Source: a virus. From it: a stretch of DNA of 53,633 nt. Location of the stretch: IMG/VR virus record IMGVR_UViG_3300034039_000013, positions 1 through 53,633 of that record. One strand, given 5' to 3'. The translations under genes were made by a program, and so were the position numbers. Every line of letters begins with the position of its first letter. Position 1 is the stretch's first letter. The notes under the pieces were generated by a model. The model did not search any database, was not told where the DNA came from, and saw only the letters and a program-made list of their open reading frames with translations. This document shows, one piece after another, positions 6,850 through 53,633 of this stretch.

Positions 6850-9800
6850 ATGCAAGTGATAGACGCCACCGATGCTTTGAAAAGCTTAAAGGAGATCTGT
6901 CAGAACCCTGATAAAGATTTGCTGCTTATAGACGCTAGAGGGCAAGCTTTGCGTTGCCTGTTGGGAGGCAAAGACCCAGACGGTCTGACTGACGAGAATG
7001 GTAACAACTGCAATAGCGCCGAGTTCGGAGTAAGAAACTTTTTGCAATATGTGCTTCTGCCAGCAATCGACGAGTATGGAGTACACAACATAATCATGGT
7101 ATGGGAAGGCGGCAACGATCGGCGTCGAGCCATCTTCCCTGAGTATAAGGCTAATCGAAAAGAACCTACAGAGTTAGTAAGTCAAGAAATTGAGCGTTGT
7201 CTCAAATACATAAAATCGCTGGCGGCTGGACTTGGAATTTTACAATGCGCTGCGCCTACCTGCGAGGCGGACGACCTTATTGCATTGTTCTGTGAGTCAG
7301 TTGATCGCAATATCGACATCATGACTAACGATGCTGACCTTGCTCAGCTTGTTAGAGATTACGACAACAAGGTTGTCACTGTCATTGTCGGGGAAAATGT
7401 AATCACTGATGAATACAAAGGCATCCCGACGCACTTGATAGCTTTGTATAAGTCGCTCGTGGGGGACTCGTCTGACGGCTACCCTGGGATCAAAGGCTTC
7501 GGCCAGAAAGCCTGGGACTCCCTCGTAGAGGAGTATGGCTGGGACGGACTTGAGGAGTTGGATCGCATCGTTGCCAGCCAAGACTTCAAGGCGCTAGACG
7601 AAGTTGAGATGAACGCGGCTTTGAAAAAGATTCATGCCAACGTTCAGCAGTGGTGGAAGTCTTACCTTCTGGCCAAGCTGCATCCTGAATGGGTTGGCAA
7701 GCCGTTCATGGGCAAAACCCGCCCTATTCAATGGTTCCAGAGGGTTCCAAATAAAGCCAGAGTGCAAACTGTACTGGAGGCCGTAGGCGTACCAGAGATA
7801 TTGGAAGATTTGGAAGTCGTACTTCCAAACTATCTGCTTGTTGACTCTGAAGTCTACGATTCAGAATTTGAAAAGGAGCTTTATAAAGAGATTAAAAATT
7901 CTCCGTTTATCGCACTGGACTTTGAGACGTATGACCCAGAAGACCCGTATGGAAACGAAAAGCGGCAATCAGTAGATGTGTTGTCTCATGTGGCTACTGG
8001 TGCATCGCTGACCTTCGGGGCGAATCTGGAAAACACAGTGTACCTGACGTTCCGTCATAAGGATTCGTACAACTTGGATCGCAGTGTGCTGACGAAAATC
8101 ATAGAGAAGGCAAACGAGTACGAGGTACCTGTAGTTGCACACAGCAGTCAGTTCGAGCTTGAAATCTTGCATCATGATTTCAACGTTCAGCCGAAGGTGC
8201 ACTACGATACTCAGCATATGGCCAGATTTGCTGAGGAGAATAAGCCGAACGATTTGAAATCTCTATCGTTCGAGTGGCTTAAGTACAAACAGAAAACTTA
8301 TAGCGAAACCGTAGGCGATAAAGGCCATATGGCCAATTTGACGGCTGAGGAAGCAGCATTCCCGTATGGCTGCGACGACGCTATTGTGACGGCTATGTTG
8401 TACAAGCTGTTCACAATTATCTTGCAGGTGGAAGGTACGCTTAAGTTCTACCAAGAGAACATTCCGGCGGCTCAAGAAGTCATGCTGAACTCTCGTCGCC
8501 AAGGTGTGTATGTCTCCATACCACACCTTAAAGAGTACGAACAGGACGATAACAAGGAGTTTGAAGAATGCATGGGAAAGCTTAAACCGCTGCTCGCAAA
8601 ACACTGTGCTCAAGGGCCTAAGCGGGCAGCGGTTCATCGGTTCCTGAATGCGGACTTTGTTCCATACATGCAGGCAACCATAACCGATCCTAAGGCTCTT
8701 GAAGAAAAGATCGAGAAAGAAGCGGAAGCCATTATAAGCTACTGTACTTACACTGATTACGAGGTTCATGAGGAAGAGCCTAATTGGGTTCCGACTCCTA
8801 CTAAATTCTCTGCGGCATGTGCCAAGCTTGGCCTGCCACCGGTAGAGAAAATAAACGTAACCTATATCAGTGAGTACATAGAAGGGTTAACGCAGGATGA
8901 GACGATAGAGCTGACAGCAGACCAGCGTAAATTCTTGCGCTTGTTGGGAGAAGCCGCGGCCTCTTTAAGAAGTAGAAAGGGTCGGGAGTACGAGGCGTTA
9001 AAGAAGTTCTGTATCAAAGTAACTGGCATGAAGGGTAAGCTAATTGAGACCGGAACTAAGATCGATCTCGGCTCTCCGAAGAAAATGCAGTGGCTTCTAT
9101 ACGTTATGTTGGATCTACCTGTTAGAGTACGTTCAGACGTAGCTTATGGAAGCAAGCGTCACAAACTCGGACTGGAAGGCTCTCCGGCTACGGACGCTAA
9201 AGCTATTTCCGCAGCCTTGGCGTTTGACGTAAAAGATGGCGATTGGAGAAAAGAGGCCCTAGAGTTGATTAAGAAGATGAAGGACATCAACACTCGTCGC
9301 AGCTTCTACTTCAAGAGCTATCCAGAGCTGGTGAGTAAGAAGGACGGTCGGATGCACCCAAGTTTTAGCTTGGTGTCTACCGTGACACGTCGTCCTACTT
9401 GTACTGCTCCGAACATTTTGCAGGTAAGTTCCGGCAAAGACGACTTCAGGCTGCGTAAGTGCTTCTCTGGCGCGTATACAGAGAAGGTGACAGGCTACGA
9501 TGATACTTACTTGGTTGTATGTATTGACTTCTCTCAACAGGAGCTTCGTATTTTGGCTTCTGAATGTAAAGACGAGAAGCTGATTCGATGCTACGTAGGC
9601 GATCCTGACCAAAGGCTGGACGTGCATACTTTATCAACGGTGAGTATCTACAACAAAACTCACAGCAAGCCCATAACTTATGAGCAGGCTGTGAAAGAGA
9701 TGAAAGAGGAAACCGAACTTGGTAAAGAGCTCTCTCTCATTCGTAAGAAGAAAGCAAAGCCTGTAAACTTTGCTATTGTTTACGGAGGCACAGAGCACAC

Positions 9801-18830: not shown

Positions 18831-19196
18831 CTAATCGTGATAGTTTCCCCACATACAGTGCAACAACTCGTGCCCCAAGGTCAAAGTGGCGTCATCATCC
18901 ACCTTTTTAACAGGTGTTATGAAGATTACACATCTTCCATCTTCGCCTCTTCCCGCGAAACCTTTTAGGTTTCCGTTGGTAGGTACTTTCTTTCCGTACT
19001 TTTCATAGAGGCTGTAAAGAGTCTTCTGGTCAACCATTTTGACCTCGACAACCCCTTTATAGAAATAGGGGTTTTCTAGGCCGTCTATACGTACCTTATT
19101 GGTTAACCTTGAACTGTAGAAGTACAGAATAGCTGCCGCTAAAACTATTAACGACAGCGTATATGCAGTTTTAGTATGTCGGGACTGTGATGACAT
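18831..19196 (-). CDS. Membrane-anchored HExxH zincin-like protein
   Basis: This 121-residue protein is taken from the ATG at 19196, which has AAGG 8 bases upstream. A GTG at 19205 is an alternative. It has one N-terminal membrane segment (about residues 11-30) and an outer domain that ends in a zinc-metallopeptidase motif, HELLH followed by CMWGNYHD (His109, Glu110, His113, His120), with the motif only 8 residues from the C-terminus. A third His 7 residues after the second resembles, with one residue difference in spacing, the metzincin HExxHxxGxxH pattern. The substrate is unknown. It could act on cell wall or virion proteins in the periplasm. Confidence 0.7.
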   Translation of the reverse strand: MSSQSRHTKTAYTLSLIVLAAAILYFYSSRLTNKVRIDGLENPYFYKGVVEVKMVDQKTLYSLYEKYGKKVPTNGNLKGFAGRGEDGRCVIFITPVKKVDDDATLTLGHELLHCMWGNYHD

Positions 19197-19392
19197 ACTG
19201 CACACCTTCTGCTTCGTCTTTAGTTACAGCAGAAACCCTAACCTTCCACACTGGTGAGCCTTCCTGAGGTTCTTGATAAAGCTGCACGCTTTGCAAAGAA
19301 ATCTCTGGATGTAGGCTCAAGAACGAATCCAATTCTTGCTCTATAGTAGAGCACAAAGTCTTTAGATTCGTGGTTAATTCTGTGATATTCAT
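19171..19392 (-). CDS. Small protein following tail fibre (copy C, intact)
   Basis: This 73-residue protein has a strong AGGAGGG ribosome binding site 10 bases before the ATG. Its N-terminal half (LKTLCSTIEQELDSFL) aligns with the small proteins starting at 25160 (LKDLKSTIEEAVAGF) and 19561 (IKTLNAAVVASL), so three paralogues exist, each directly after a copy or fragment of the same tail protein. This one is complete and leads into the zincin-like gene, so it probably marks the original gene order. A fibre chaperone or assembly factor is a reasonable but unproven guess. Confidence 0.7.
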   Translation of the reverse strand: MNITELTTNLKTLCSTIEQELDSFLSLHPEISLQSVQLYQEPQEGSPVWKVRVSAVTKDEAEGVQYVITVPTY

Positions 19393-19427
19393 ATTACCAT
19401 TACCCTCCTATATATAGGTTGATTACA

Positions 19428-19500
19428 TTATATGCCGGATCCACTCTTTGTCCAAGCAAAGGTTACGGTATCCGTATCAGTGACGGTGACGGTGACGTCA
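19428..19500 (-). pseudogene. C-terminal relic of a third tail-protein copy (copy C)
   Basis: Read on the - strand, the last 23 codons before the TAA at 19430-19428 encode VTVTVTD then TVTFAWTKSG, nearly the same as the end of the tail protein at 25208-26215 (VTVTVTD...TVTFTWTKSG). No start or upstream domain is attached. A TAG interrupts the frame at about 19507. It is therefore the 3' remnant of a tail-protein gene whose body is missing at this place. It is followed by the intact small gene at 19392. Confidence 0.75.
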
Positions 19501-19561
19501 GGCTAGCAACTACAGCCGCGTTAAGTGTTTTAATTGCTTCGGTTGCAGTTTGTATCGACAT
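19463..19561 (-). pseudogene. Truncated small fibre-associated protein (copy B)
   Basis: The ATG at 19561 has a good GGAGGA ribosome binding site. The first 21 residues (SIQTATEAIKTLNAAVVASL) align with the two paralogous small proteins. The last 11 residues are the out-of-frame reading of the copy C tail-protein relic. The gene is therefore cut short by a recombination junction near 19495-19507. A 32-residue peptide may still be made. Confidence 0.6.
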
Positions 19562-19577: not shown

Positions 19578-20483
19578 TTAAATGAGCGGGTCTTCGCCCA
19601 ACCAGTCAAAATGCACATCGCCAGAGTCCGTCGCGCTAAGCGCAGGGTTGACAGCATCGGTCACTGTCACAGTTACGGTAGCCCATGCTGACGAGCTAGC
19701 GCCTGATGGCGTACTTGCATCCGCAGAACAAGTTGGTGTAGCAGACGTTGTGTTGTAAATCGCAATATCTGAAGGCGTTGGAGTTCCGTTCTTAGTCGTA
19801 GGTCCGATGCTCCACTGATAATTGACAGGATGCGGAGTAGCGCCCTTAACAAAATACAACGTCACACTTTGCGGACGAGAGATATTTCCGCCGCCAGTTC
19901 TAGTACCATTCGTCGGGACATATCGTATGGCATAAAGCTCCCCGGGTTGTGTAGCGCCAGTGTACACAGGGGATGGCGGTGTGTACGTCGCCCCAGACGT
20001 TGACGAGCTACCGGGTTCTAGCCCCTCATCCCATGCAAATGAGGCCGTACAAGTTTTCGTTATAACAATCCCAGTCTGGATATCAGTCAATTGCAACTGC
20101 ACCTGATACGTGCGAATGTTAAATGGACCTAACGCTGGTGTGGCAATACTACAATACTCGCTCGTTGCACCGGTCAATGTGCCATCGGTATCACCGCCGA
20201 CAATCGACCAATTCCACGTCAATGGGGGTTTATACCCATTCTCCAAAACGTAATCGGGCATAATAGCAATAGACAAAACCTCTGTCGTATTTGTCCACTT
20301 AGCGTGATTTTTCAGGCTCACACTTTTAAGCGTCGTAGCTTTGCCAGCGTGAGCAAATAGGCCGCCTAAATCCGTTCCAGAAGAATTACGAAAGCCGGTG
20401 ACAGGGTAGATAACATTCCAGGTGTAAAAGGCATTGGCGAAGGGAAAGCGACGGCGCTTCTGAAAGATAAGAATACGGAGCAT
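19578..20483 (-). CDS. Tail receptor-type protein, copy B, 5'-truncated
   Basis: This is a paralogue of the tail protein at 25208-26215. The two share SGTDLG / AGADLG, LFAHAGKATTLKS, ENGYKPPL-WNWSI, TGATQPGELYAIR and VNYQWSIG in the same order, with beta-rich Ig-like repeats. The similarity begins at about 20390. The first 30 codons of the open frame (20483-20391) are instead the antisense of an exonuclease fragment, and about 50 N-terminal residues seen in copy A are missing. No convincing ribosome binding site precedes the nominal start. It is probably a silent or chimeric copy. The C-terminus also differs from copy A (ends EDPLI rather than TKSGD). Confidence 0.65.
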   Translation of the reverse strand: MLRILIFQKRRRFPFANAFYTWNVIYPVTGFRNSSGTDLGGLFAHAGKATTLKSVSLKNHAKWTNTTEVLSIAIMPDYVLENGYKPPLTWNWSIVGGDTDGTLTGATSEYCSIATPALGPFNIRTYQVQLQLTDIQTGIVITKTCTASFAWDEGLEPGSSSTSGATYTPPSPVYTGATQPGELYAIRYVPTNGTRTGGGNISRPQSVTLYFVKGATPHPVNYQWSIGPTTKNGTPTPSDIAIYNTTSATPTCSADASTPSGASSSAWATVTVTVTDAVNPALSATDSGDVHFDWLGEDPLI

Positions 20484-20720
20484 GAAATGTACACCGCTGT
20501 CCTTGATGCTTACATCGAGGACGCCTTTGTCAACTGGCCTTGTGAGGTTGATGAGGGTGTTATAGACTCTGAAGATGACCTGAATACCAATTTGACGATG
20601 TTGTATCTTTTAAGGAGTGAAGACGATGAATGGGAAAGCCCATTCAACAGACAAGCAAGCCCCTGGCAAAGCGACGTTGGTTTTTATTTCCAGCAAAAAA
20701 GATGCCAGGATCGCGGTTGA
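20391..20720 (+). pseudogene. C-terminal fragment of a 5'-3' exonuclease (FEN/T7 gp6-like)
   Basis: In the + frame, starting at about 20394, the sequence reads GDRVDNIPGVKGIGEGKAT, the helix-3-turn-helix DNA-binding signature of FEN-type phage exonucleases. It is followed by the helical region MYTAVLDAYI and the end-of-family pattern LTMLYLLRSEDDEWE. There is a stop in frame at 20367 and no start codon before 20487, so the catalytic N-terminal two-thirds are missing. It is overlapped on the other strand by the aberrant 5' end of tail copy B. This marks the left edge of the foreign block. Confidence 0.8.
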
Positions 20721-20976
20721 TGTGTGCAAGCAATTGGTGCGGCAGCATGACGCCTATTTTCTTAGCTTCAAGCCGCAAGTGTACAGCATCATCGAGGTTA
20801 TGGCCTATGCAGCAGACAGGGAAAGCCCGCTTGTGTGCATACCCTCGACGCCTCCAGAGGGGGCAGACAAGGTGCTGGAGTATGAACATATCAACCTTGA
20901 CCTGTTTTGCTACGACGATGTTGTCCACCTTTTCCAACAAGTTGAAACAAAACTGGGGCTAACCCATGGACAGTAA
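20626..20976 (+). CDS. Hypothetical protein, 116 aa
   Basis: The start at 20626 is supported by AAGGAG 8 bases upstream. A GTG at 20617 would be too close to it. The gene overlaps the exonuclease fragment by 95 bases and the sigma-like gene by 11. I do not recognise a family. The alternating beta/alpha pattern (ATLVFISSKKDARIAVDVCKQL, then SPLVCIPSTPP) suggests a small Rossmann-like or toprim-like fold. It is the first intact gene of the foreign block. Confidence 0.68.
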   Translation: MNGKAHSTDKQAPGKATLVFISSKKDARIAVDVCKQLVRQHDAYFLSFKPQVYSIIEVMAYAADRESPLVCIPSTPPEGADKVLEYEHINLDLFCYDDVVHLFQQVETKLGLTHGQ

Positions 20977-21508
20977 GTTTGCTGAGATTGACGACCTCCT
21001 GAAGCACTTTGCCAGCCGCTATTGCGACGGCGATGAAGAATTGTTTGATAAACTTTACCAGCAGGCCGCCCTGCTCTACCTTGACAAGAGAAGGTCTTTC
21101 GATGAATCTAAGGGGAAAACATCCACCTGGCTTTACGCTTGGTTGCCCCACGCCCTTGTGTCATACAAGAAACAGATGCGGCGGCTTGTTACAGTGTCAG
21201 ATTATAAGGCAAGAGCTATGAGCGATGAAGAACAAGACTTGGCCAAGCATATCAGCATAACCCATGACAACGCCGACACGCTGCCAGGCAAAGAGGACGA
21301 AGGAAGGGACGACCAGATATGCGCCAACGAAATGATGGCCATAGCGAAGCAGGTTCTCTCGCCAAGGGAATACAGGTGCCTTGTGCTGCACTACCTGTAC
21401 GACATGCCGAAGACCGTTATTGGCGAAGTTGAGAATGTGTCCGGCGAGAGGGTGCGGCAGATTATCGAAAACGCGCTGAAGAAAATTAGAAAACAGGCGG
21501 GGGTGTAG
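20966..21508 (+). CDS. Sigma-70-like RNA polymerase sigma factor
   Basis: This 180-residue protein has region 2 near residues 36-58 (YLDKRRSFDESKG and STWLYAWL, matching the FD..KG.F.TYLY pattern) and region 4 near 132-178 (LSPREYRCLVLHYLYDMP, then the helix-turn-helix GEVENVSGERVRQIIENALKKIRK). The linker between is short and charged. It should redirect host RNA polymerase to specific promoters, probably the late genes of the phage from which this block came. No such factor is seen in the rest of the window. Whether its promoters exist in this genome is unknown. Confidence 0.82.
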   Translation: MDSKFAEIDDLLKHFASRYCDGDEELFDKLYQQAALLYLDKRRSFDESKGKTSTWLYAWLPHALVSYKKQMRRLVTVSDYKARAMSDEEQDLAKHISITHDNADTLPGKEDEGRDDQICANEMMAIAKQVLSPREYRCLVLHYLYDMPKTVIGEVENVSGERVRQIIENALKKIRKQAGV

Positions 21509-21510
21509 CG

Positions 21511-22248
21511 GTGAGGCTCTACTACGAAACCAAGCAAGGCCGCCTTTACCAAGGCGACTGCCTGGAAGTTATGCAGAAACTTGCTGACGATGGTGTTAAA
21601 GTGGATATGGTATTGACCGATCCGCCGTATGGGACGACCGCTTGTAAATGGGATTCTGTTATCCCATTGGAGCCAATGTGGGAATGTATAAAGAGATTGA
21701 CAAAGGAGCAGTCGGCCATTGTTATGACCGCAAGCCAACCCTTCACAAGCCTTTTAGGATCTTCAAATATCAAATTGTTACGTTATTCGTGGGTGTGGCA
21801 GAAATCTGCAGCTACAGGACATTTGAACGCAAAACGGATGCCCATGAAAAACCATGAGGATGTGTTGGTCTTTTATGCAAAGCAGCCAACGTATAACCCG
21901 CAAGGATTAACCGATTTCAAGAAAACAGTTAGACGTGGCGGTAACGGCGGCTGCTATGGTGACAGCGGCAAAGAGAACTTCCAAGAAAAAACTGGATACC
22001 CGAGGACGGTATTAAAAATAAACAGCGAGGGCAAAACCGTTCACCCTACACAAAAACCGGTCGCATTGATGGAATATTTAATCAAAACATACACCAACGA
22101 AGGTGATTTGATTCTGGACTTTACGATCGGCTCAGGAACAACAGCTATAGCCGCTGAAAGAACAGGGCGCAAATGGATAGGCATAGAGTTGTCGGAAGAA
22201 TACTGTGAGGTTGCCAAGCAAAGACTTGAGAAGGAGGCGCAACAATGA
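21511..22248 (+). CDS. DNA methyltransferase, adenine-type (beta class)
   Basis: This 245-residue site-specific methyltransferase starts at GTG, with GGGGG shortly upstream. The catalytic motif IV TDPPYG (Asp37-Tyr40) comes before the SAM-binding motif I LDFTIGSGTT (about 202-211), the order of the beta class. DPPY indicates N6-adenine rather than N4-cytosine as target. HPTQKP before motif I is also typical. No cognate restriction nuclease is adjacent, although an HNH gene lies two genes on. Likely roles are protection from host restriction or regulation. The recognition site cannot be read from the sequence. Confidence 0.9.
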   Translation: MRLYYETKQGRLYQGDCLEVMQKLADDGVKVDMVLTDPPYGTTACKWDSVIPLEPMWECIKRLTKEQSAIVMTASQPFTSLLGSSNIKLLRYSWVWQKSAATGHLNAKRMPMKNHEDVLVFYAKQPTYNPQGLTDFKKTVRRGGNGGCYGDSGKENFQEKTGYPRTVLKINSEGKTVHPTQKPVALMEYLIKTYTNEGDLILDFTIGSGTTAIAAERTGRKWIGIELSEEYCEVAKQRLEKEAQQ

Positions 22249-22439
22249 AGGTGTTAGAAAAGGCAAGGCTACACGCTGAAGACCTAGCATATTACATCCA
22301 GCACAGGGAAAGGCTTGTGCGTAGTGGGCATTCAAAGCTGGACAACATTGACCAGCAAATTGCCGAGGAGCTTACCATCCTTAAAGAAATAGCCGAGGTT
22401 GTTTGCAGGGACTTGGTGAATGAGCAAGACAAGGAATAA
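22245..22439 (+). CDS. Hypothetical protein, 64 aa
   Basis: This short helical, charged protein overlaps the methyltransferase stop as ATGA and the HNH gene by 20 bases. I recognise no domain. It contains a possible helical hairpin (LHAEDLAYYIQHRERLV, then IDQQIAEELTILKEIAEVV). Tight packing and the overlapping junctions suggest a real gene within one transcript. Confidence 0.62.
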   Translation: MKVLEKARLHAEDLAYYIQHRERLVRSGHSKLDNIDQQIAEELTILKEIAEVVCRDLVNEQDKE

Positions 22440-22797
22440 CGGCAGGTGGACAGAAGCAAGGTTTCGGAGTTTCATCATCAGCGCCCTGCGCAAGGCCACC
22501 TACCGCTGGCCACCCAAGGGGGAGGTGGTTAAACAAGCATCCACAGGGAGGGGCAGGTTCCGCTGTGCCATGTGCAAGAAGGACTGCCCCACCTCCCTAC
22601 CAGCAGAGGACGGAGGGAAGCGGATAAGGAACAGGTTTGTGGATCACATAGTGCCAATTGTTGACCCACAAAAAGGCTTTACTACCTATGACGACTGGAT
22701 AGATAGATGCTTTGTGGACAGCGACGGGTTGCAGGTGCTATGCAAATCCTGTCATGATGCGAAAACCCAACAAGAGAGGGAGAGGAGAAAGAAATGA
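22420..22797 (+). CDS. HNH endonuclease
   Basis: This 125-residue protein has a zinc-binding HNH core: FRCAMCKKDC near residue 47, then VDHIVPI (first catalytic His with Asp), then VLCKSCHDAKTQQE (CxxC plus the final His) near 108-121. It is a small free-standing nuclease of the kind found near phage packaging or replication genes. It could be a homing enzyme or a genome-processing nuclease. Its start overlaps the gene before, and its stop overlaps the kinase start as ATGA. Confidence 0.83.
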   Translation: MSKTRNNGRWTEARFRSFIISALRKATYRWPPKGEVVKQASTGRGRFRCAMCKKDCPTSLPAEDGGKRIRNRFVDHIVPIVDPQKGFTTYDDWIDRCFVDSDGLQVLCKSCHDAKTQQERERRKK

Positions 22798-23348
22798 TTG
22801 TTATTCTGAACGGACCGCCGGGGTCAGGCAAGGACACAATAGCAAATGGGCTTCTGAAAGCTGGGGTTGCTCACGCTCCTTTATGCTTCAAAGATGAGTT
22901 GTATATCCAGACGGCCTCTCGCTTCAAGCTAAGCCTTTCTTACTTCATCGCCCTTGCTTCAGACAGAGAGACAAAAGAGGAGCCTTGCCACCTGCTTGGT
23001 GGTATGTCGCCAAGGGAGGCGCTGATAGACACGTCTGAGAGAATCATCAAGCCCAAGAAAGGCAAGGACTACTTTGGGCGAAAGGTGGCCGAGGTTGCTG
23101 CGCAGCGACCACCAGAGGACGTTATCATCATCTCTGACGGTGGCTTCAAGGAGGAAATTGAGCCTCTACTTGAGACGCATCACAGAGTTGTCATCATCCA
23201 CCTGCACCGACCTGGCTGCACTTTTGACGGGGATAGCCGGTCTTACATCAATGTTGGCGGGGCGCATTACGACTGCATAGTAAACGACGGCACCATTGAT
23301 GAGGCAGTTGAGGCAGCTGAAAGAATCATCAGGAGGCATCACGCATGA
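22794..23348 (+). CDS. Deoxynucleoside monophosphate kinase-like P-loop protein
   Basis: This 184-residue protein has Walker A GPPGSGKD at residues 6-13 and the block KPKKGKDYFGRKVAE (about 83-97), followed by VIISDGGF, which together are typical of phage dNMP kinases. These phosphorylate deoxynucleoside monophosphates from degraded host DNA to feed replication. Its start and stop both overlap the neighbouring genes as ATGA. A short sequence at about 24996-25072 encodes a similar GKDFLGR block. Confidence 0.83.
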   Translation: MIVILNGPPGSGKDTIANGLLKAGVAHAPLCFKDELYIQTASRFKLSLSYFIALASDRETKEEPCHLLGGMSPREALIDTSERIIKPKKGKDYFGRKVAEVAAQRPPEDVIIISDGGFKEEIEPLLETHHRVVIIHLHRPGCTFDGDSRSYINVGGAHYDCIVNDGTIDEAVEAAERIIRRHHA

Positions 23349-23683
23349 GAATGAAAGACGACGTTTTGTTTGACAGAGATGGTGTGAATGCACAGCCAGA
23401 ACTTTTTTACGGTTTGTGGATTGTAGCGGAGACATATAGGGATCTTGGCATTACCGGCAAGAGGGCTTGTGTAACGTCTGTTATGGACGGTAAGCACAGC
23501 CCCAACAGCCTGCATTACAAAGGGTTTGCTTTTGATATAAGGACATGGGCGGATGAACATGGCACACAGATGAGCGACAAGACGAAGTGGGCTTTCCGCA
23601 ACCTTCTTGCTGAACGCTTAGGCGATGATTGGGATGTTGTGGTGGAGAGAAGCCACATACATGTGGAGTATGACCCGCAGTGA
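23345..23683 (+). CDS. M15-family peptidase, endolysin-like
   Basis: This 112-residue zinc peptidase has the M15 signature SLHYKGFAFDIR (ligands His57 and Asp64) and ERSHIHVEYD (Glu101 as likely catalytic residue, His106 as third ligand). Such single-domain proteins cut D-Ala-D-Ala or L-Ala-D-Glu type links in peptidoglycan and often serve as phage endolysins. It is followed immediately by a small membrane protein, as in a lysis pair. It has no signal peptide, so export would need a holin. All metal ligands are present, so it looks active. Confidence 0.87.
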   Translation: MRMKDDVLFDRDGVNAQPELFYGLWIVAETYRDLGITGKRACVTSVMDGKHSPNSLHYKGFAFDIRTWADEHGTQMSDKTKWAFRNLLAERLGDDWDVVVERSHIHVEYDPQ

Positions 23684-23925
23684 TGTTAACAATCTTCGCA
23701 GTTACATTCATCTATGTTGCGCTGAAAGCCATGCAACAGCTTCAGGTGGTCAACTATGAATTCGCGAGGGTGCTCCCTGTTTCTTTCGGCATGGCGCTGT
23801 GCGAGGTAACAATTATGCTCTCTGTTGTCAATGACGTTGGTTTCTGGGGCTTTATCCCCATGGGCCTTGGTGGTGGCCTTGGTGCCATGCTAAGCATGTA
23901 CCTACATAAACGGATGAACGGATGA
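23683..23925 (+). CDS. Small membrane protein, holin candidate
   Basis: This protein of about 80 residues has two to three hydrophobic segments (about 1-20, 28-48 and 52-72) and a short basic C-terminus (HKRMNG). It starts at the ATG at 23683, or at the GTG at 23680 that overlaps the peptidase stop. Immediate coupling to an M15 peptidase suggests a holin, but some phages keep related membrane proteins of unknown role here. Sequence alone does not decide. Confidence 0.65.
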   Translation: MLTIFAVTFIYVALKAMQQLQVVNYEFARVLPVSFGMALCEVTIMLSVVNDVGFWGFIPMGLGGGLGAMLSMYLHKRMNG

Positions 23926-23938
23926 GCAGGGGGGAGCA

Positions 23939-24487
23939 ATGAAAATATTGCACATTGACATTGAGACAGCACCTAATGTCAGCTACACATGGGGCCTTTT
24001 CAACCAGAACGTAGCTATTGACCAGATAGTTGAGCCTGGCTACACTTTGTGCTTCGCCGCAAAATGGCACAAGAGCCGCAAGAAAGATGTCATGTTTCAT
24101 TCCATCTGGCATGACGGCAAGAGAGGGATGATTGAGGCCGCCGCAGATTTACTGTGCGAGGCGGATGCTGTTGTCCACTACAACGGAAAGAGCTTTGATA
24201 TACCCACATTATGCAAGGACTTCCTGCTGGAGCTTGGCAAACCACCCGCTCCCTTCCACCAGATTGACCTGCTACACGTTGTGAGGAAGCGTTTTAGGTT
24301 TGCGAGTAACAAGCTGGACTTTGTTGCCCGTCAACTTGGCATTGGTAAGAAACTGCCGCATAAGGGCATGGACCTTTGGCGAGGCTGTATGCATGGCAAC
24401 CAGAAAGACCAGAGGGTTATGGAGAGGTATAACATTCAGGACGTGTTGTTGCTTGAAAACTATACGAAAGATTGTTGCCGTGGATAA
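23939..24487 (+). CDS. DnaQ-like exonuclease, N-terminal part (frameshifted gene)
   Basis: This 182-residue reading frame has RNase H-like DEDD exonuclease motifs: HIDIETAPN (Asp7, Glu9), VVHYNGKSFDIP near residue 80, and RYNIQDVLLLE near 161-171. A GGGGGAG ribosome binding site precedes the ATG. At about 24470 the frame leaves the expected path and ends with four unrelated residues, while the -1 frame continues with LPWINKHPN and a zinc ribbon (next feature). Adding one T restores a single protein of about 255 residues. The exonuclease motifs are all upstream of the break, so some activity could remain. Confidence 0.8.
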   Translation: MKILHIDIETAPNVSYTWGLFNQNVAIDQIVEPGYTLCFAAKWHKSRKKDVMFHSIWHDGKRGMIEAAADLLCEADAVVHYNGKSFDIPTLCKDFLLELGKPPAPFHQIDLLHVVRKRFRFASNKLDFVARQLGIGKKLPHKGMDLWRGCMHGNQKDQRVMERYNIQDVLLLENYTKDCCRG

Positions 24488-24702
24488 ATAAGCACCCCAA
24501 CCACGGACTGTACACCGACGAAGATAGACCAGTATGCACAAATTGTGGCAGCAGGCATGTTGTTAAGAATGGTGTGGAGAGGCTGGCAACACAAGCATAC
24601 CAGCGATACCGTTGCCAGAAGTGCGGAACGCCTTTGAGAGGCCGAACCACTATACTCACCAAAGAGAAGCGTGCTACCATCTTAACCCAGAGTAAACTGT
24701 GA
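24472..24702 (+). CDS. Zinc-ribbon C-terminal part of the frameshifted exonuclease
   Basis: This frame has no proper start (TTG at 24472) or ribosome binding site. It encodes LPWINKHPNHGLY, then a zinc ribbon with CTNCG and CQKCG separated by about 29 residues. Related phage exonucleases carry this same ribbon directly after their last catalytic motif, so this is the displaced C-terminal domain of the gene at 23939 and not an independent gene. A loss of one base around 24471-24476 explains the split. No typical slippery heptamer is present there. Confidence 0.72.
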   Translation: MLPWINKHPNHGLYTDEDRPVCTNCGSRHVVKNGVERLATQAYQRYRCQKCGTPLRGRTTILTKEKRATILTQSKL

Positions 24703-24709
24703 GGGCATT

Positions 24710-24904
24710 ATGAAGAAACAGCAGGAAGTGAACAAGGTTGTGCTAAGACTACTTGTGGATGCGCTGGGACAGCCTGTGGTGACAGTTGACGTGGACAATG
24801 ATATAGCCCTTGATGTCATAGCGGCCTCACTGGCTAAGGCCGCAGCCGCCTTGCTTGGTGAAATTGAAGACAGCGAAGGCATACAGCCTACCGTAAGTCA
24901 TTAG
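24710..24904 (+). CDS. Hypothetical protein, 64 aa
   Basis: This small protein has GAGGG shortly before the ATG and starts 7 bases after the zinc-ribbon frame. No family is recognised. It is mildly acidic and helical, with an alanine-rich stretch (SLAKAAAALLGEI). It is the last protein gene of the foreign block, just before the tRNA. Confidence 0.58.
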   Translation: MKKQQEVNKVVLRLLVDALGQPVVTVDVDNDIALDVIAASLAKAAAALLGEIEDSEGIQPTVSH

Positions 24905-24914
24905 ACTAGGTTTT

Positions 24915-24990
24915 GCCGCAGTAGCACAATTGGCAGTGCAGCTGATTTGTACTCAGAAGGTTGCAGGTTCGACTCCTGCCTGCGGCACCA
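24915..24990 (+). tRNA. tRNA-Thr (anticodon TGT)
   Basis: A full cloverleaf of 76 bases can be folded. The acceptor stem GCCGCAG pairs with CTGCGGC, the D stem GCAC pairs with GTGC, and the T stem GCAGG pairs with CCTGC around TTCGACT. The anticodon loop TTTGTAC gives anticodon TGT (reads ACA). CCA is encoded. The anticodon stem has one G-A mismatch at its outer pair (27-43). It lies near the right edge of the foreign block. Phage tRNAs usually supply codons rare in the host. Confidence 0.85.
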
Positions 24991-24995
24991 TATCC

Positions 24996-25072
24996 CGCAA
25001 AGGGAAAGACTTTCTTGGGCGTAGCCTTGCTGACTATGTAAACAAGCATGGGGAAGGCAAGACATTCATTAT
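24996..25072 (+). other. Coding-like fragment between tRNA and the block edge
   Basis: In one + frame this stretch reads KGKDFLGRSLADYV and then GEGKTFII, which resembles the GKDYFGR...VIIISD block of the kinase at 22794. It has no start and ends where the antisense of the small protein copy A begins (about 25070-25078). It may be a broken fragment of a second kinase gene. The match is short and could be chance. Confidence 0.3.
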
Positions 25073-25207
25073 CTGGGTTATCCGCGATAAAGCCCGCAAC
25101 GGCTTCCTCGATAGTGGATTTAAGGTCTTTCAATACGTCTGTTACTATTTGAATAGACATTTTTGTTTCTCCTCTGTTGGTTGACTTTTTAGCTCCACCC
25201 TCCACTC

Positions 25208-26215
25208 TTAGTCTCCACTCTTAGTCCAGGTGAAAGTTACGGTTTCCGTTGCTGTTGCAGACAGGCTCGTATTAACCGCATCTGTGACCGTCACAGTCAC
25301 AGGCGCAGATACAGTTGTCGATGCCAAATCTGGTGTGCCGCTGGTGGCGACGCATTGTGCGCTGCTAGACGTTGCATAGTTCAGCGTCATATCGCTCGGT
25401 GTCGGGGAGCCGGTTTTACTCGATGCGCCAATTGACCACTGATAATTAACGGCGTGCGGTGTGGCTCCGCTGACAAAATACAATTCAACGGTTTGATAGC
25501 GAGAGATCGTGCCGCCATCAACCATAGAGCCGTTTGTCGGCACAAACCGAATGGCGTACAGCTCGCCGGGCTGAGTCGCGCCGGTATAGCGCGTGCTGGG
25601 GGGTGGTGTGGTGCCGGTGCTGCCGCTGCTGGACGTAGCGCCGCCGGGGGACAGCTCAGAATCCCAGACAAACGACACGCTGCATGTGTCTGTCAGCACG
25701 ATGCCGGTGTTAGAATCTGTGAGCTGCAACTGTAGCGTGCATCGCTTAATGGCAAACGGCGCTGTGGCGGGCGCTATCACAGAACAGGTCTCGCTAGTCG
25801 CACCGGACAGCGACAAGTCTGCATCACCGTCAATAATGCTCCAGTTCCACGAAAGCGGCGGTTTATATCCATTCTCCAGTACATATTGCGGCGTTACAGA
25901 TTGGCTCATGCCTACATTCTGGTTCGTCCACTGCGCGTAGTTGAGAAGGTCAACACTCTTTAGCGTCGTCGCCTTGCCCGCATGGGCAAACAGGTTGCCC
26001 AAGTCCGCGCCGGCCGAGTTCAAAAACCCCGTCATAGTATCCGCTTGCGACCCGTAGGTCTGCTCCCACAGGTACATCTGACTACGCGGCGCGTATTTCA
26101 CACCGAGATCCGTCCCTGCGCTGTCATAGTAGTAAGTCGTCTGCGTCAAGCCGCCTTGCCTCACGGCCCAGCGCGTAGTTATATCAACGCCACTGCTGTC
26201 GTAAAACGTACTCAC
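25208..26215 (-). CDS. Tail receptor-type protein, copy A (complete)
   Basis: This 335-residue structural protein has three N-terminal repeats of the form Y/F-x-x-S-x-G-x-D-L (about residues 5, 30 and 65), then Ig-like beta domains rich in Thr, Val and Ser, ending VTVTVTD...TFTWTKSGD. It starts with GTG overlapping the stop of the S74 fibre gene (GTGA). It is the only complete one of three related copies (the others are at 19578 and 19428). Base composition is clearly more GC-rich than the rest of the tail operon. It is probably a receptor-binding or tip protein attached to the fibre. No enzyme motif is visible. Confidence 0.78.
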   Translation of the reverse strand: MSTFYDSSGVDITTRWAVRQGGLTQTTYYYDSAGTDLGVKYAPRSQMYLWEQTYGSQADTMTGFLNSAGADLGNLFAHAGKATTLKSVDLLNYAQWTNQNVGMSQSVTPQYVLENGYKPPLSWNWSIIDGDADLSLSGATSETCSVIAPATAPFAIKRCTLQLQLTDSNTGIVLTDTCSVSFVWDSELSPGGATSSSGSTGTTPPPSTRYTGATQPGELYAIRFVPTNGSMVDGGTISRYQTVELYFVSGATPHAVNYQWSIGASSKTGSPTPSDMTLNYATSSSAQCVATSGTPDLASTTVSAPVTVTVTDAVNTSLSATATETVTFTWTKSGD

Positions 26216-27982: not shown

Positions 27983-30649
27983 CTAAGGTAATTGATAATA
28001 TCCGCCACCACTAGAAGGAGGAGCATACGGCCCCCCTCCGCCTGTAGTATTAGCACTTTCCTCTACAGGGGCTTCTACAGAACCGTCTAATAAGTTCTGG
28101 AAGTCGCCCCACTCTAAGTTAGTATCATCGTCTGGGTCTAAGAATCTGTCACCCCATCCTCCAACCGAGTGCAACACAGTCATCCCTCTATTAAATACTG
28201 GGTACCGCCCATAAAACGTCCCAGACGACACATAAGTTTTGAAAGAAAACCTAACGGCTCCTACAGGTATAAGTATGCCCTCTAATTTCACAGTAGAAAA
28301 CGACCCAGGGGGAGTCTGTGGTGTCGTAGTGGCTGGTGTACCAACAGGGTTACCTACATCATCATAAAACGCAACTTCCAAGTAGGCCCCTGTAGCATTT
28401 ATATTTTGCCAAACCAACGAGCAAGAAACATAATCTCCAGGTATTAACTCGTAAGAAGATAGCCTAAGACCTTTGAAAGACTTGTTAGCCCCGATGATTA
28501 TAGTGTTAGAGTAGACCCGTTGAGATCTCCTAGAAGGTGACACCAAATTATAAGGGCTTTGTCGTTCTCCGTATTCTTCTGCGGTCAACCCTGCTTCTAT
28601 CAATGTACCATTAGTGTCCAGAGTATTCCAAGCTCCCACCTGCCCAGAAGTGTTGATAAGCCTTGCCCACACATAAAGTATCCCTGAGATAGATACTGTA
28701 TAAGATACCTCAGACAATGAAGTGAAATCAGCAGGTACAGGGAACACCTTACTTAACGTGGCGGTATTCCTGTCATTAGAAGTTGAAAAGGTAAACTCTA
28801 CGCTAGCTATGTCTTTATCGTTAACAGAACTTACATCCAAAGTTAACTCTACGCCACCAGACAGCTTTGAATAGGTGATAGGCCCAGGTTGGTCAGGCCC
28901 AGTAGTCTTGGCTGTAACTATCCTATTCACAAGGGTGGCCTTAGCGCCTACCTTCTCCATAGCATTTATCGCAAATACTTCAAAGTCATAAGCTACACCT
29001 TCCTCAAGGACTAAGTACTGAGTTGTTGTGTTCTTGTCAACATCTGTATAGTTCCAAGCCGTGTCTGAAGATCTTTTCCAACGGAGTCTATACCTATCTA
29101 AGTATTGATCGTTTACTGGATCCCACACCAACTTAGCTCTAGGAAGGACTACGCCGTTGGGTGCAGGTAGTATGGCGTCATCCCCAGTATAAAATTGGAA
29201 ATTAGCAGGGGCTGGCATAGCCAAAGGATCGTAATCAATAGATACAGGAACACTAACGTCAGTAGTATACTCAGACAAAGCAACATCCCAAGCAGTCGTC
29301 AACTCTTCGACCAGTGTCAACTCTACGGAGAAGTCTGGGTTTATCGACATCTCTACGACTCTAAATAAAACGTCTGGAAGAGTAGGAGAGGCCAAATTTA
29401 CATTAACCAAAGACTGCACAGATGCCCTGAGTACAGTAGGTTTGCAGACCATTCTCAAAAGTTTCTGCTGTCTAGATTGCTTGAGAAGTATTATTGCTAT
29501 TCGTTGTGCTTGATAGACATCTGTAACACCTTCAAGCTTTATTTCCCTCTGAAATCTGCGCCCATCCTCAGTCTCGTAAGTTGTACTCTTTGCCGGAGGA
29601 AACGTCACACTGTCGTAGCCATCAGACGGCTCAGTATAGGTACCTGAAACATAGTTGTAATAGCTATCTCCTGTTAGGTTGGAACTATATACGAGGTTAC
29701 CTATAATGTCGTCCTCAGTAATAGTAAACTCGGCCACCCCGCCGACTCCTGCCAAAATTCTCCACTTTCCTCCGACATAAACAACCTTACCTAGCATAGT
29801 TTGCAGGATTTTCTCTAGGTTGTTTTTCCTCGAATCTGCTGTAGATAGAGCAATGTTACATTCGTACCGCTTCTGATAAGTCGATCCAGGTGGGATCTCC
29901 TCAAGCTGATCGCAAGCGTTGGCGGCTGCCATCACTGAAGGAAGGTCTATCCTATTGATATCCTCATTGAACCCTACTTCGCTGGTTAAGTAGTGTAAAG
30001 CTATTAGCGCAGGGTTTGTTGTATACTCCCAGGTACTTTGATCTGAAAATCTATGTGTGCCTGAACCGCCTTGTACTGTGCTATCCTTTCTTGGGTCGTA
30101 CACCTTAGCACCGCGCATTATTACAGATACGGACGGCAAAGTTTCCCATTCCTCGTATGTACCGAACCGGATAGCTATATAAGCTACGCCAGTACCCTTG
30201 TGGTTGGAAGTCCACTCAGATGGGTTTGCCCCAGAAATCAAAGGACTGGCAGTTTGAGACTGCGTTCCTGTGTACAATTCATATGTAATATCACGGCCAG
30301 CGTACTTTGGATCAGAAATTGATTTACCGTCTATAATAACGTCATCTATAGCCTCAACTTCGTGCTCACAGAACGCAACTACGTAGTACAGTGCAGATCC
30401 CTTCGTTGTCCAATAAACAAGAGGGCCAGATACTCTGACTTTTCCATATACAACAGACAGCGGGGCGTCAGAATCCCTGACCATCCCTTTCTTAGGAGGA
30501 GTGGTCAAGTCGGTTTTAGGCTGCATACCTTCTATGATGGCATTAAAAGTCACCATCAATATGATTTGGCCTATGACAGCGGCAATAGAAGCATAACCTA
30601 TTGCCGCTGAGGCCGCTGCAAACGCTACTGCTACCGCTGCTTGTGGCAT
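27983..30649 (-). CDS. Tail tip attachment protein (J-like)
   Basis: This 888-residue protein resembles the central tail-tip hub of lambda-like siphoviruses. It has an Ala-rich hydrophobic N-terminus (residues 1-40) and a conserved body (PLSVVYGKVRVSGP, then a region ending in MLGKVVYVGGKWRI). Fibronectin type III-like segments (about 475-700) follow, and then a C-terminal jelly-roll domain. It follows the DUF2163-like and NlpC/P60-like genes, as in many siphoviruses. It should close the tail tube and carry fibres that contact the receptor. Confidence 0.85.
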   Translation of the reverse strand: MPQAAVAVAFAAASAAIGYASIAAVIGQIILMVTFNAIIEGMQPKTDLTTPPKKGMVRDSDAPLSVVYGKVRVSGPLVYWTTKGSALYYVVAFCEHEVEAIDDVIIDGKSISDPKYAGRDITYELYTGTQSQTASPLISGANPSEWTSNHKGTGVAYIAIRFGTYEEWETLPSVSVIMRGAKVYDPRKDSTVQGGSGTHRFSDQSTWEYTTNPALIALHYLTSEVGFNEDINRIDLPSVMAAANACDQLEEIPPGSTYQKRYECNIALSTADSRKNNLEKILQTMLGKVVYVGGKWRILAGVGGVAEFTITEDDIIGNLVYSSNLTGDSYYNYVSGTYTEPSDGYDSVTFPPAKSTTYETEDGRRFQREIKLEGVTDVYQAQRIAIILLKQSRQQKLLRMVCKPTVLRASVQSLVNVNLASPTLPDVLFRVVEMSINPDFSVELTLVEELTTAWDVALSEYTTDVSVPVSIDYDPLAMPAPANFQFYTGDDAILPAPNGVVLPRAKLVWDPVNDQYLDRYRLRWKRSSDTAWNYTDVDKNTTTQYLVLEEGVAYDFEVFAINAMEKVGAKATLVNRIVTAKTTGPDQPGPITYSKLSGGVELTLDVSSVNDKDIASVEFTFSTSNDRNTATLSKVFPVPADFTSLSEVSYTVSISGILYVWARLINTSGQVGAWNTLDTNGTLIEAGLTAEEYGERQSPYNLVSPSRRSQRVYSNTIIIGANKSFKGLRLSSYELIPGDYVSCSLVWQNINATGAYLEVAFYDDVGNPVGTPATTTPQTPPGSFSTVKLEGILIPVGAVRFSFKTYVSSGTFYGRYPVFNRGMTVLHSVGGWGDRFLDPDDDTNLEWGDFQNLLDGSVEAPVEESANTTGGGGPYAPPSSGGGYYQLP

Positions 30650-52370: not shown

Positions 52371-53633
52371 TTATAAGAACAATTCACGTCGTTTCCGCTC
52401 AGCATAAAGCTCTTTTTTAGCAGGTTTTTCGTCAGTTTTCATCCTAACTCCGCCAACAGACGCCCCTCCAACAGAAGGAAGCACCGGTATCGGCCCAGCT
52501 CTAATGCCATCCCTGATAGTTCTAGCCGCAATCATCGCATAATTCAATGCGTGTGCATAGTGGTCTGGCCCTGTTTTTACCCAAAATTCCTTGTCATCAC
52601 CACCATAACTCGACACTCTACGCACCTTTTTCATGTTCGTCAGGTGGTCTTTCATCAACCTCATCTCATCATGACGAGGAAATCTAACAAATCCGTTGTT
52701 TATCGCCTGAACCAAAGCAGAAATCGTCTTAGTCCGGTTACTATGAAGGATCCTATCGTCCTTCACACTCACCATCGACATCTTCTTGGGGTCAACCTCA
52801 GTATAATAGTTCGCATACGCAACACCAGTAGGCAACCCCTCAACCACACTCAACGCCGTAGTAAAGTCCGGCATCGCATCCACAACACCACGTATACACC
52901 CAAACTTCTTGGCCAGCCAGATAATCCTGTCCGCCACATTCCTTCCATCACCCTCAGAAACAATACGCTCCATGTATATCACATCCAACCAACCATCCTT
53001 GTTAGACGTCGGCTTGCCAATCACAATGTTCGACACCTTACCAACGTCACACCCAAATACACAACCAGACCCACCAACATCAGGATTCACCCACTCAAGC
53101 ACAGTGTTCTTCACCACAGTGTCCAAAGAAACACTGTTCTCAGTGTCCTCATGCTCCTCACCAAGCACAAAATTCTTCCAGTCAGCATGAGATTCATACA
53201 ACTCCGCCTGCGACAAAATGCCATAAGCAGTATTGTACTTGGGCGCATCCCAAGGCCGAACCCAATAACCAGTATGATCGGACACCTCTGTCCGAGTCGC
53301 TACCCACCTGCGCCTCTCAGGGTCTTCAAGCGGCCAAGGCTCCCCACACTTCGGACAACACATCACCGCCGCCTGCCAAGGTATCGACTTATCCTGAAGC
53401 ATGTCCTTGTGGAACTTGGAAAAATCAATGTCATGCCCAGGTACACGCATGTCCCTATCAAAATCAGGCACATCTTCATAACCACAGCGACACTTACACA
53501 TATAAACACGCTGGTCAGACAACTCAAACGCCGCCGAAATCCCATATCCCTTCACCGTCGGCGTCGAGAACTTCCACAAAAACCCACCTTCCTCAGCGTG
53601 CCGCAAACGTGAAGCGTACGTCGTCAAGACATT
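52371..53633 (-). CDS. Large terminase subunit, C-terminal part (gene cut by window)
   Basis: At least 420 residues are present. The frame is still open at the window end, so the ATPase domain lies outside. The visible part has a zinc-finger-like region (CKCRCGYED, then MCCPKCGEPWP) and the nuclease domain of the terminase: FGCDVGKVSN, RGVVDAMPDFTTA, and DHYAHALNYAMIAART near the end, giving three acidic metal ligands. It resembles the gpA-type large terminase. The + strand open frame facing it is its shadow. Confidence 0.88.
   Translation of the reverse strand, partial: NVLTTYASRLRHAEEGGFLWKFSTPTVKGYGISAAFELSDQRVYMCKCRCGYEDVPDFDRDMRVPGHDIDFSKFHKDMLQDKSIPWQAAVMCCPKCGEPWPLEDPERRRWVATRTEVSDHTGYWVRPWDAPKYNTAYGILSQAELYESHADWKNFVLGEEHEDTENSVSLDTVVKNTVLEWVNPDVGGSGCVFGCDVGKVSNIVIGKPTSNKDGWLDVIYMERIVSEGDGRNVADRIIWLAKKFGCIRGVVDAMPDFTTALSVVEGLPTGVAYANYYTEVDPKKMSMVSVKDDRILHSNRTKTISALVQAINNGFVRFPRHDEMRLMKDHLTNMKKVRRVSSYGGDDKEFWVKTGPDHYAHALNYAMIAARTIRDGIRAGPIPVLPSVGGASVGGVRMKTDEKPAKKELYAERKRRELFL

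Follow-up and report, generated by a model that had tools for sequence, protein, structure and literature searches.

Mosaic joints made by illegitimate recombination are a known kind of event in tailed phages, and the joints that survive lie mostly near gene borders. Here, we analyze a virus contig from IMG/VR (linear, 53,633 bases; the window) in which an about 4.6-kb block with other gene content and composition interrupts a siphovirus backbone. The contig is a case of this known kind, either phage mosaicism or an artefactual imitation of it, and one of its joints is located to a single triplet. As in described mosaics, the joints between unrelated sequences are sharp and genes are truncated there. 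In contrast to those mosaics, both joints lie inside genes, suggesting that the event is recent or an artefact.

The closest described relatives of the backbone are Pseudomonas phage Lana (Lanavirus lana) and Vibrio phage SHOU24, which have the same gene order from terminase to tail and in the replication region, with convergent late and early modules. In the window, the left flank encodes a primase, a helicase, a polymerase with its own FEN domain, a resolvase, SbcD and SbcC on the + strand, and genes including those for lysis-type proteins on the - strand; the right flank encodes the terminase to tail fibre genes on the - strand. SHOU24 and Lana match both flanks in order, mostly at 25-40% protein identity, and terminase, portal, capsid, tape measure and replication genes are collinear. 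Moreover, the IMG/VR relatives retrieved with SbcD (15 loci) keep this gene order on the replication side. Thus, the two flanks come from the same type of phage, and what surrounds the block is part of a Lana/SHOU24-like siphovirus genome. Because these relatives are mostly 78-88 kb, the record is incomplete. The gene for the terminase large subunit (52371-53633) has its start cut by the contig end, and its alignment with Lana opens at about residue 169. The tail-tip protein (27983-30649) used as a query returned nothing from IMG/VR. Lana and SHOU24 differ from the window in having neither the tail copies A and B described below nor the tRNA-Thr. Lana has no relative of any block gene, and SHOU24 lacks the block apart from a 27% relative of its methylase.

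The left joint

The block opens with a remnant of a FEN-type 5'-3' exonuclease gene (20397-20720, + strand). The + frame from 20397 reads GDRVDNIPGVKGIGEGKATALL..., runs for 107 codons to a stop at 20718-20720, has no start codon and opens abruptly at a Gly codon (20397-20399). The PHROG 107 exonuclease family matches this frame (E 5.9e-15), while the match to Pfam 5_3_exonuc (E 1.6e-7, 32.1 bits) is below the curated cut-off of 40. In alignments with three full-length exonucleases of 230-258 aa, the first residue of the remnant corresponds to residue 164 of 230 in Lentibacter phage ICBM2, 161 of 232 in Methylophilales phage MEP401 and 173 of 258 in Vibrio phage 177E37-1, and the remnant aligns only to the last third of these relatives. 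It contains the C-terminal helix-hairpin-helix/SAM-fold segment but lacks the N-terminal catalytic part, as the first-pass annotation had recognized. Upstream of 20397, the same frame contains stops and has no likeness to the relatives. A search for the N-terminal part across the window gave matches solely at 7108-7362, and these fall within the FEN domain that belongs to the polymerase of the phage itself.

On the - strand, the exonuclease remnant faces a tail gene, copy B. The ORF listed for copy B (19578-20483, 301 aa) starts inside the antisense exonuclease, and its genuine part (19578-20399) is homologous to tail copy A from Thr62 (58% identity over 284 aa). The continuous match between the copies opens at Thr62-Gly63-Phe64 of copy A, for which the counterpart Thr codon in copy B is 20399-20397. 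Because the exonuclease frame opens and the homology between the tail copies ends at 20397-20399, the two homologies meet at one triplet, read as Gly in the exonuclease and as Thr in the tail protein.

These findings bear out the head-on fusion of two broken genes proposed in the first-pass annotation and narrow its breakpoint from about 10 bases to within about 3 bases of 20397. The antisense origin of the first codons of copy B was also correctly seen; their number was given as 30, but because the open frame starts at 20483 the antisense stretch amounts to 27-28 codons. Altogether, the alignments support a truncated FEN exonuclease that meets a shortened tail copy head-on near 20397. For copy B, the comparison with copy A supports a truncation at its N terminus; copy A is its single homologue in the collections searched (IMG/VR, genome contigs, phage records and 15 backbone-type contigs). 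Regarding micro-homology at the joint, a single shared triplet is arguable. The longest word common to the two junction neighborhoods is 6 bases, and 968 of 987 random pairs do as well; this comparison concerns the present-day neighborhoods of the joints rather than the ancestral sequences.

The right joint and the row of tail units

The flagged breakpoint proved to be merely the left end of a larger block, whose partner joint lies close to tail copy A. The last recognizable feature of the block is a tRNA-Thr (TGT) gene (24915-24990, + strand). Beyond it, on the - strand, the small gene downstream of copy A has its start at 25160; its first 30 codons (25071-25160) align with a related small gene at 19392-19171, and its frame then continues antisense through the tRNA. 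The right break is therefore placed in the about 80 bases between the end of the tRNA gene and the end of the small-gene homology at residue 30, i.e., between 24991 and 25070. If the + strand at 24990-25073 encoded a second dNMP-kinase fragment, the right joint would fall near 25070, which is why we weighed this candidate. None of 300 shuffles aligned as well to the kinase of the block itself, but 10, 2 and 37 of 300 did so for three other kinases, the phage records held no matching kinase at E up to 10, and PHROGs gave no kinase family; this candidate was dropped.

Tail copy A (25208-26215, - strand) is intact. The tail fibre gene ends with a stop codon that overlaps the start of copy A (26212-26215), suggesting that copy A is in its native place. 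Copy A also has the most unusual composition among the stretches tested (GC 0.562, z 6.9, 0 of 424 core windows). An AlphaFold2 model of copy A has a mean pLDDT of 59, with residues 1-102 below 50; the PDB entries that it matched, generic beta-sandwich proteins, had query TM-scores of about 0.12-0.23 and were set aside. Searches for relatives of the two copies gave little. Copy A as a query returned one unconfirmed stretch from IMG/VR and no relatives from the phage records, and copy B found no relatives in IMG/VR. An alignment (A1) used as a query returned 40 stretches from IMG/VR and 109 from the genome contigs, none of which was confirmed, and none of the 15 whole backbone-type contigs contained a relative of either copy.

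A second scar lies beyond copy B. At 19420-19561 (- strand), the start of the small gene that follows copy B (MSIQTATEAIKTL...) runs out of frame into the C-terminal end of a third tail copy (...VTVTVTDTDTVTFAWTKSGSGI), which was recognized by a blastn match to the end of copy A. The remnant of the third tail copy is followed by a third small gene (19171-19392, - strand), which pairwise comparison relates to those after copies A and B; for each pair of the three small genes, 0 of 500 shuffles scored as well. The related small genes together with the tail copies imply that the region was a row of units, each comprising a tail gene and a small gene. The third unit, placed after copy B, is mostly deleted. 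Thus, the block separates unit A from unit B, and units B and C are separated by a deletion scar. Before the event, unit A would have been followed directly by unit B.

Gene content and affinities of the block

The block (20397-24990) is on the + strand, opposite to the late genes. After the exonuclease remnant and a hypothetical gene, it encodes in order a sigma-70-type sigma factor with regions 2 and 4 (20966-21508), an N6/N4 DNA methylase (21511-22248), an HNH protein (22420-22797), a dNMP kinase (22794-23348), a small peptidase-like protein (23345-23683), a holin (23680-23925; PHROG 7045) and a PolB-type exonuclease with a broken frame (23939-24702; PHROG 403), all on the + strand, and ends with the tRNA-Thr. 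The sigma factor had no tblastn match in 50,697 phage records and no confirmed match in IMG/VR. For the peptidase-like protein, the sole Pfam match above the cut-off is a Hedgehog signalling domain, and its peptidase assignment is putative. The PolB-type exonuclease is split over two frames at about 24467-24472, where six translated IMG/VR relatives and Podoviridae sp. ctXG6705 read through; this one-base frame break is either decay or a sequence error. Against the genome contigs, the same protein gave one weak locus, which was left out of the analysis. A mobile element integrated at the tRNA was also considered and rejected: there is no integrase among the scanned block proteins, and the ends have no repeats (shared words of at most 6 bases).

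The nearest relatives of the block genes are in Zobellviridae and similar podoviruses (ICBM2, MEP401, 177E37-1 and ctXG6705), at 34-40% for the exonuclease, 55% for the HNH protein and 54% for the PolB-type exonuclease. Like the block, these phages have an exonuclease followed by an endonuclease, and a lysozyme adjoins their PolB-type exonuclease. However, no single record among those examined has the whole block in its order. Four block-type contigs (L008, L010, L011 and L028) contain the exonuclease, the HNH protein and the PolB-type exonuclease in the order of the block. Among whole backbone-type contigs, the PolB-type exonuclease, HNH protein and dNMP kinase of the block were each found in 0 of 15. 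Conversely, a portal profile made from the window, SHOU24 and Lana matched 13 of the 15 backbone-type contigs and 0 of 15 block-type contigs, the latter being 15 of 38 block-type loci and including several short ones. One further contig (L037) holds relatives of the tail-tip proteins of this phage together with a PolB-type exonuclease, on the same strand and not head-on.

The tetranucleotide composition of the two flanks is alike (pairwise JS 0.005-0.007), while the block is set apart (z 4.5, 0 of 96 core windows; z 4.7, 0 of 284 in another run). Taken singly, the quarters of the block are mildly unusual (z 1.2-2.7), copy A is more extreme than the block, and one tape-measure stretch in an earlier scan was as unusual as the block. 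Piece by piece, composition provides weak evidence.

Origin of the block

Altogether, we consider it on balance probable that the block is foreign to the Lana/SHOU24-like siphovirus and was brought in by illegitimate recombination at the border of units A and B. In the proposed sequence of events, the ancestral late region would have carried a row of tail-gene and small-gene units, flanked by the tail fibre gene on one side and by the lysis genes on the other. Recombination with unrelated phage DNA, joining ends without long homology, would then have put a foreign piece in place of the last part of small gene A and the first part of tail gene B; this piece extends from inside a donor exonuclease gene to the tRNA-Thr and is oriented opposite to the late genes. 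Because the block lies between neighboring units of one row, a single insertion would explain both joints. The exonuclease lost its catalytic part and start, and copy B lost its start, so neither gene should make its full product; both would be expected to be silent or functionless, and copy A could serve in place of copy B. Counted against a foreign block are the 27% relative of the methylase in SHOU24, the mild composition of the block quarters, the extreme composition of copy A and contig L037. In IMG/VR and the 15 backbone-type contigs, we found neither a second genome with either joint nor a relative with an empty site and the A-B row.

Several other explanations were weighed. The most serious, less likely than the main reading but of substantial probability, is a technical chimera in which the block was joined during amplification, library making or assembly, and in which the joints were never in a virion. 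Chimeric virus assemblies are documented (PMC7417191). Several features fit a chimera: the record is metagenome-derived and incomplete, each joint falls inside genes of which neither was rescued, the joints have no long homology in common, and the one-base frame break in the PolB-type exonuclease points to decay or imperfect sequence. However, two artefactual joints would have to return to the neighboring unit of the same row, and the joints share no word on which an assembler could slip. We regard as improbable that sequences of two phages were joined only once, at 20397, with 1-20396 from one phage and 20397-53633 from the other. In the latter, early and late genes would converge near 25000, and the corresponding tail genes of the two phages would be copies A and B. 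Copy B would then be short merely because the sequence of its phage ends at 20397, and L037 does unite tail-tip relatives with a PolB-type exonuclease. Nevertheless, the two genes in L037 are not arranged head-on, the antisense course of small gene A through the tRNA makes the right end look broken as well, the flanks share one composition from which the block departs, and the tested block genes are missing from all 15 backbone-type contigs.

The last explanation, that copy B genuinely starts with its listed first residues and that the exonuclease-like frame is due to chance or to an overlapping gene, is hardly credible. In its favor, the antisense frame has no stop and the ORF list gives copy B 301 aa, but the - frame remains open further upstream by chance, and the ATG at 20483 has no Shine-Dalgarno-like ribosome-binding site at a normal distance. 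Likewise, the exonuclease frame matches PHROG 107 at E 5.9e-15, and its alignment is confined to the last third of the relatives.

Under the favored reading of a captured foreign block, we tentatively suggest a broader interpretation, which we hold to be possible rather than probable: the row of tail units would be prone to recombination, with at least two scars, at the A/B and B/C borders, left by repeated illegitimate exchanges, one of which may have taken up several genes of an unrelated phage lineage as a block. The siphovirus would thereby have gained an additional sigma factor, DNA methylase, holin and peptidase-like gene and lost one tail copy. If the contig is instead a chimera, the sigma factor, the methylase and the second set of lysis genes should not be ascribed to one phage. 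If the joints are real, they would document DNA transfer between phage lineages without a common portal gene, with the fusion points inside genes and caught before selection has tidied them.
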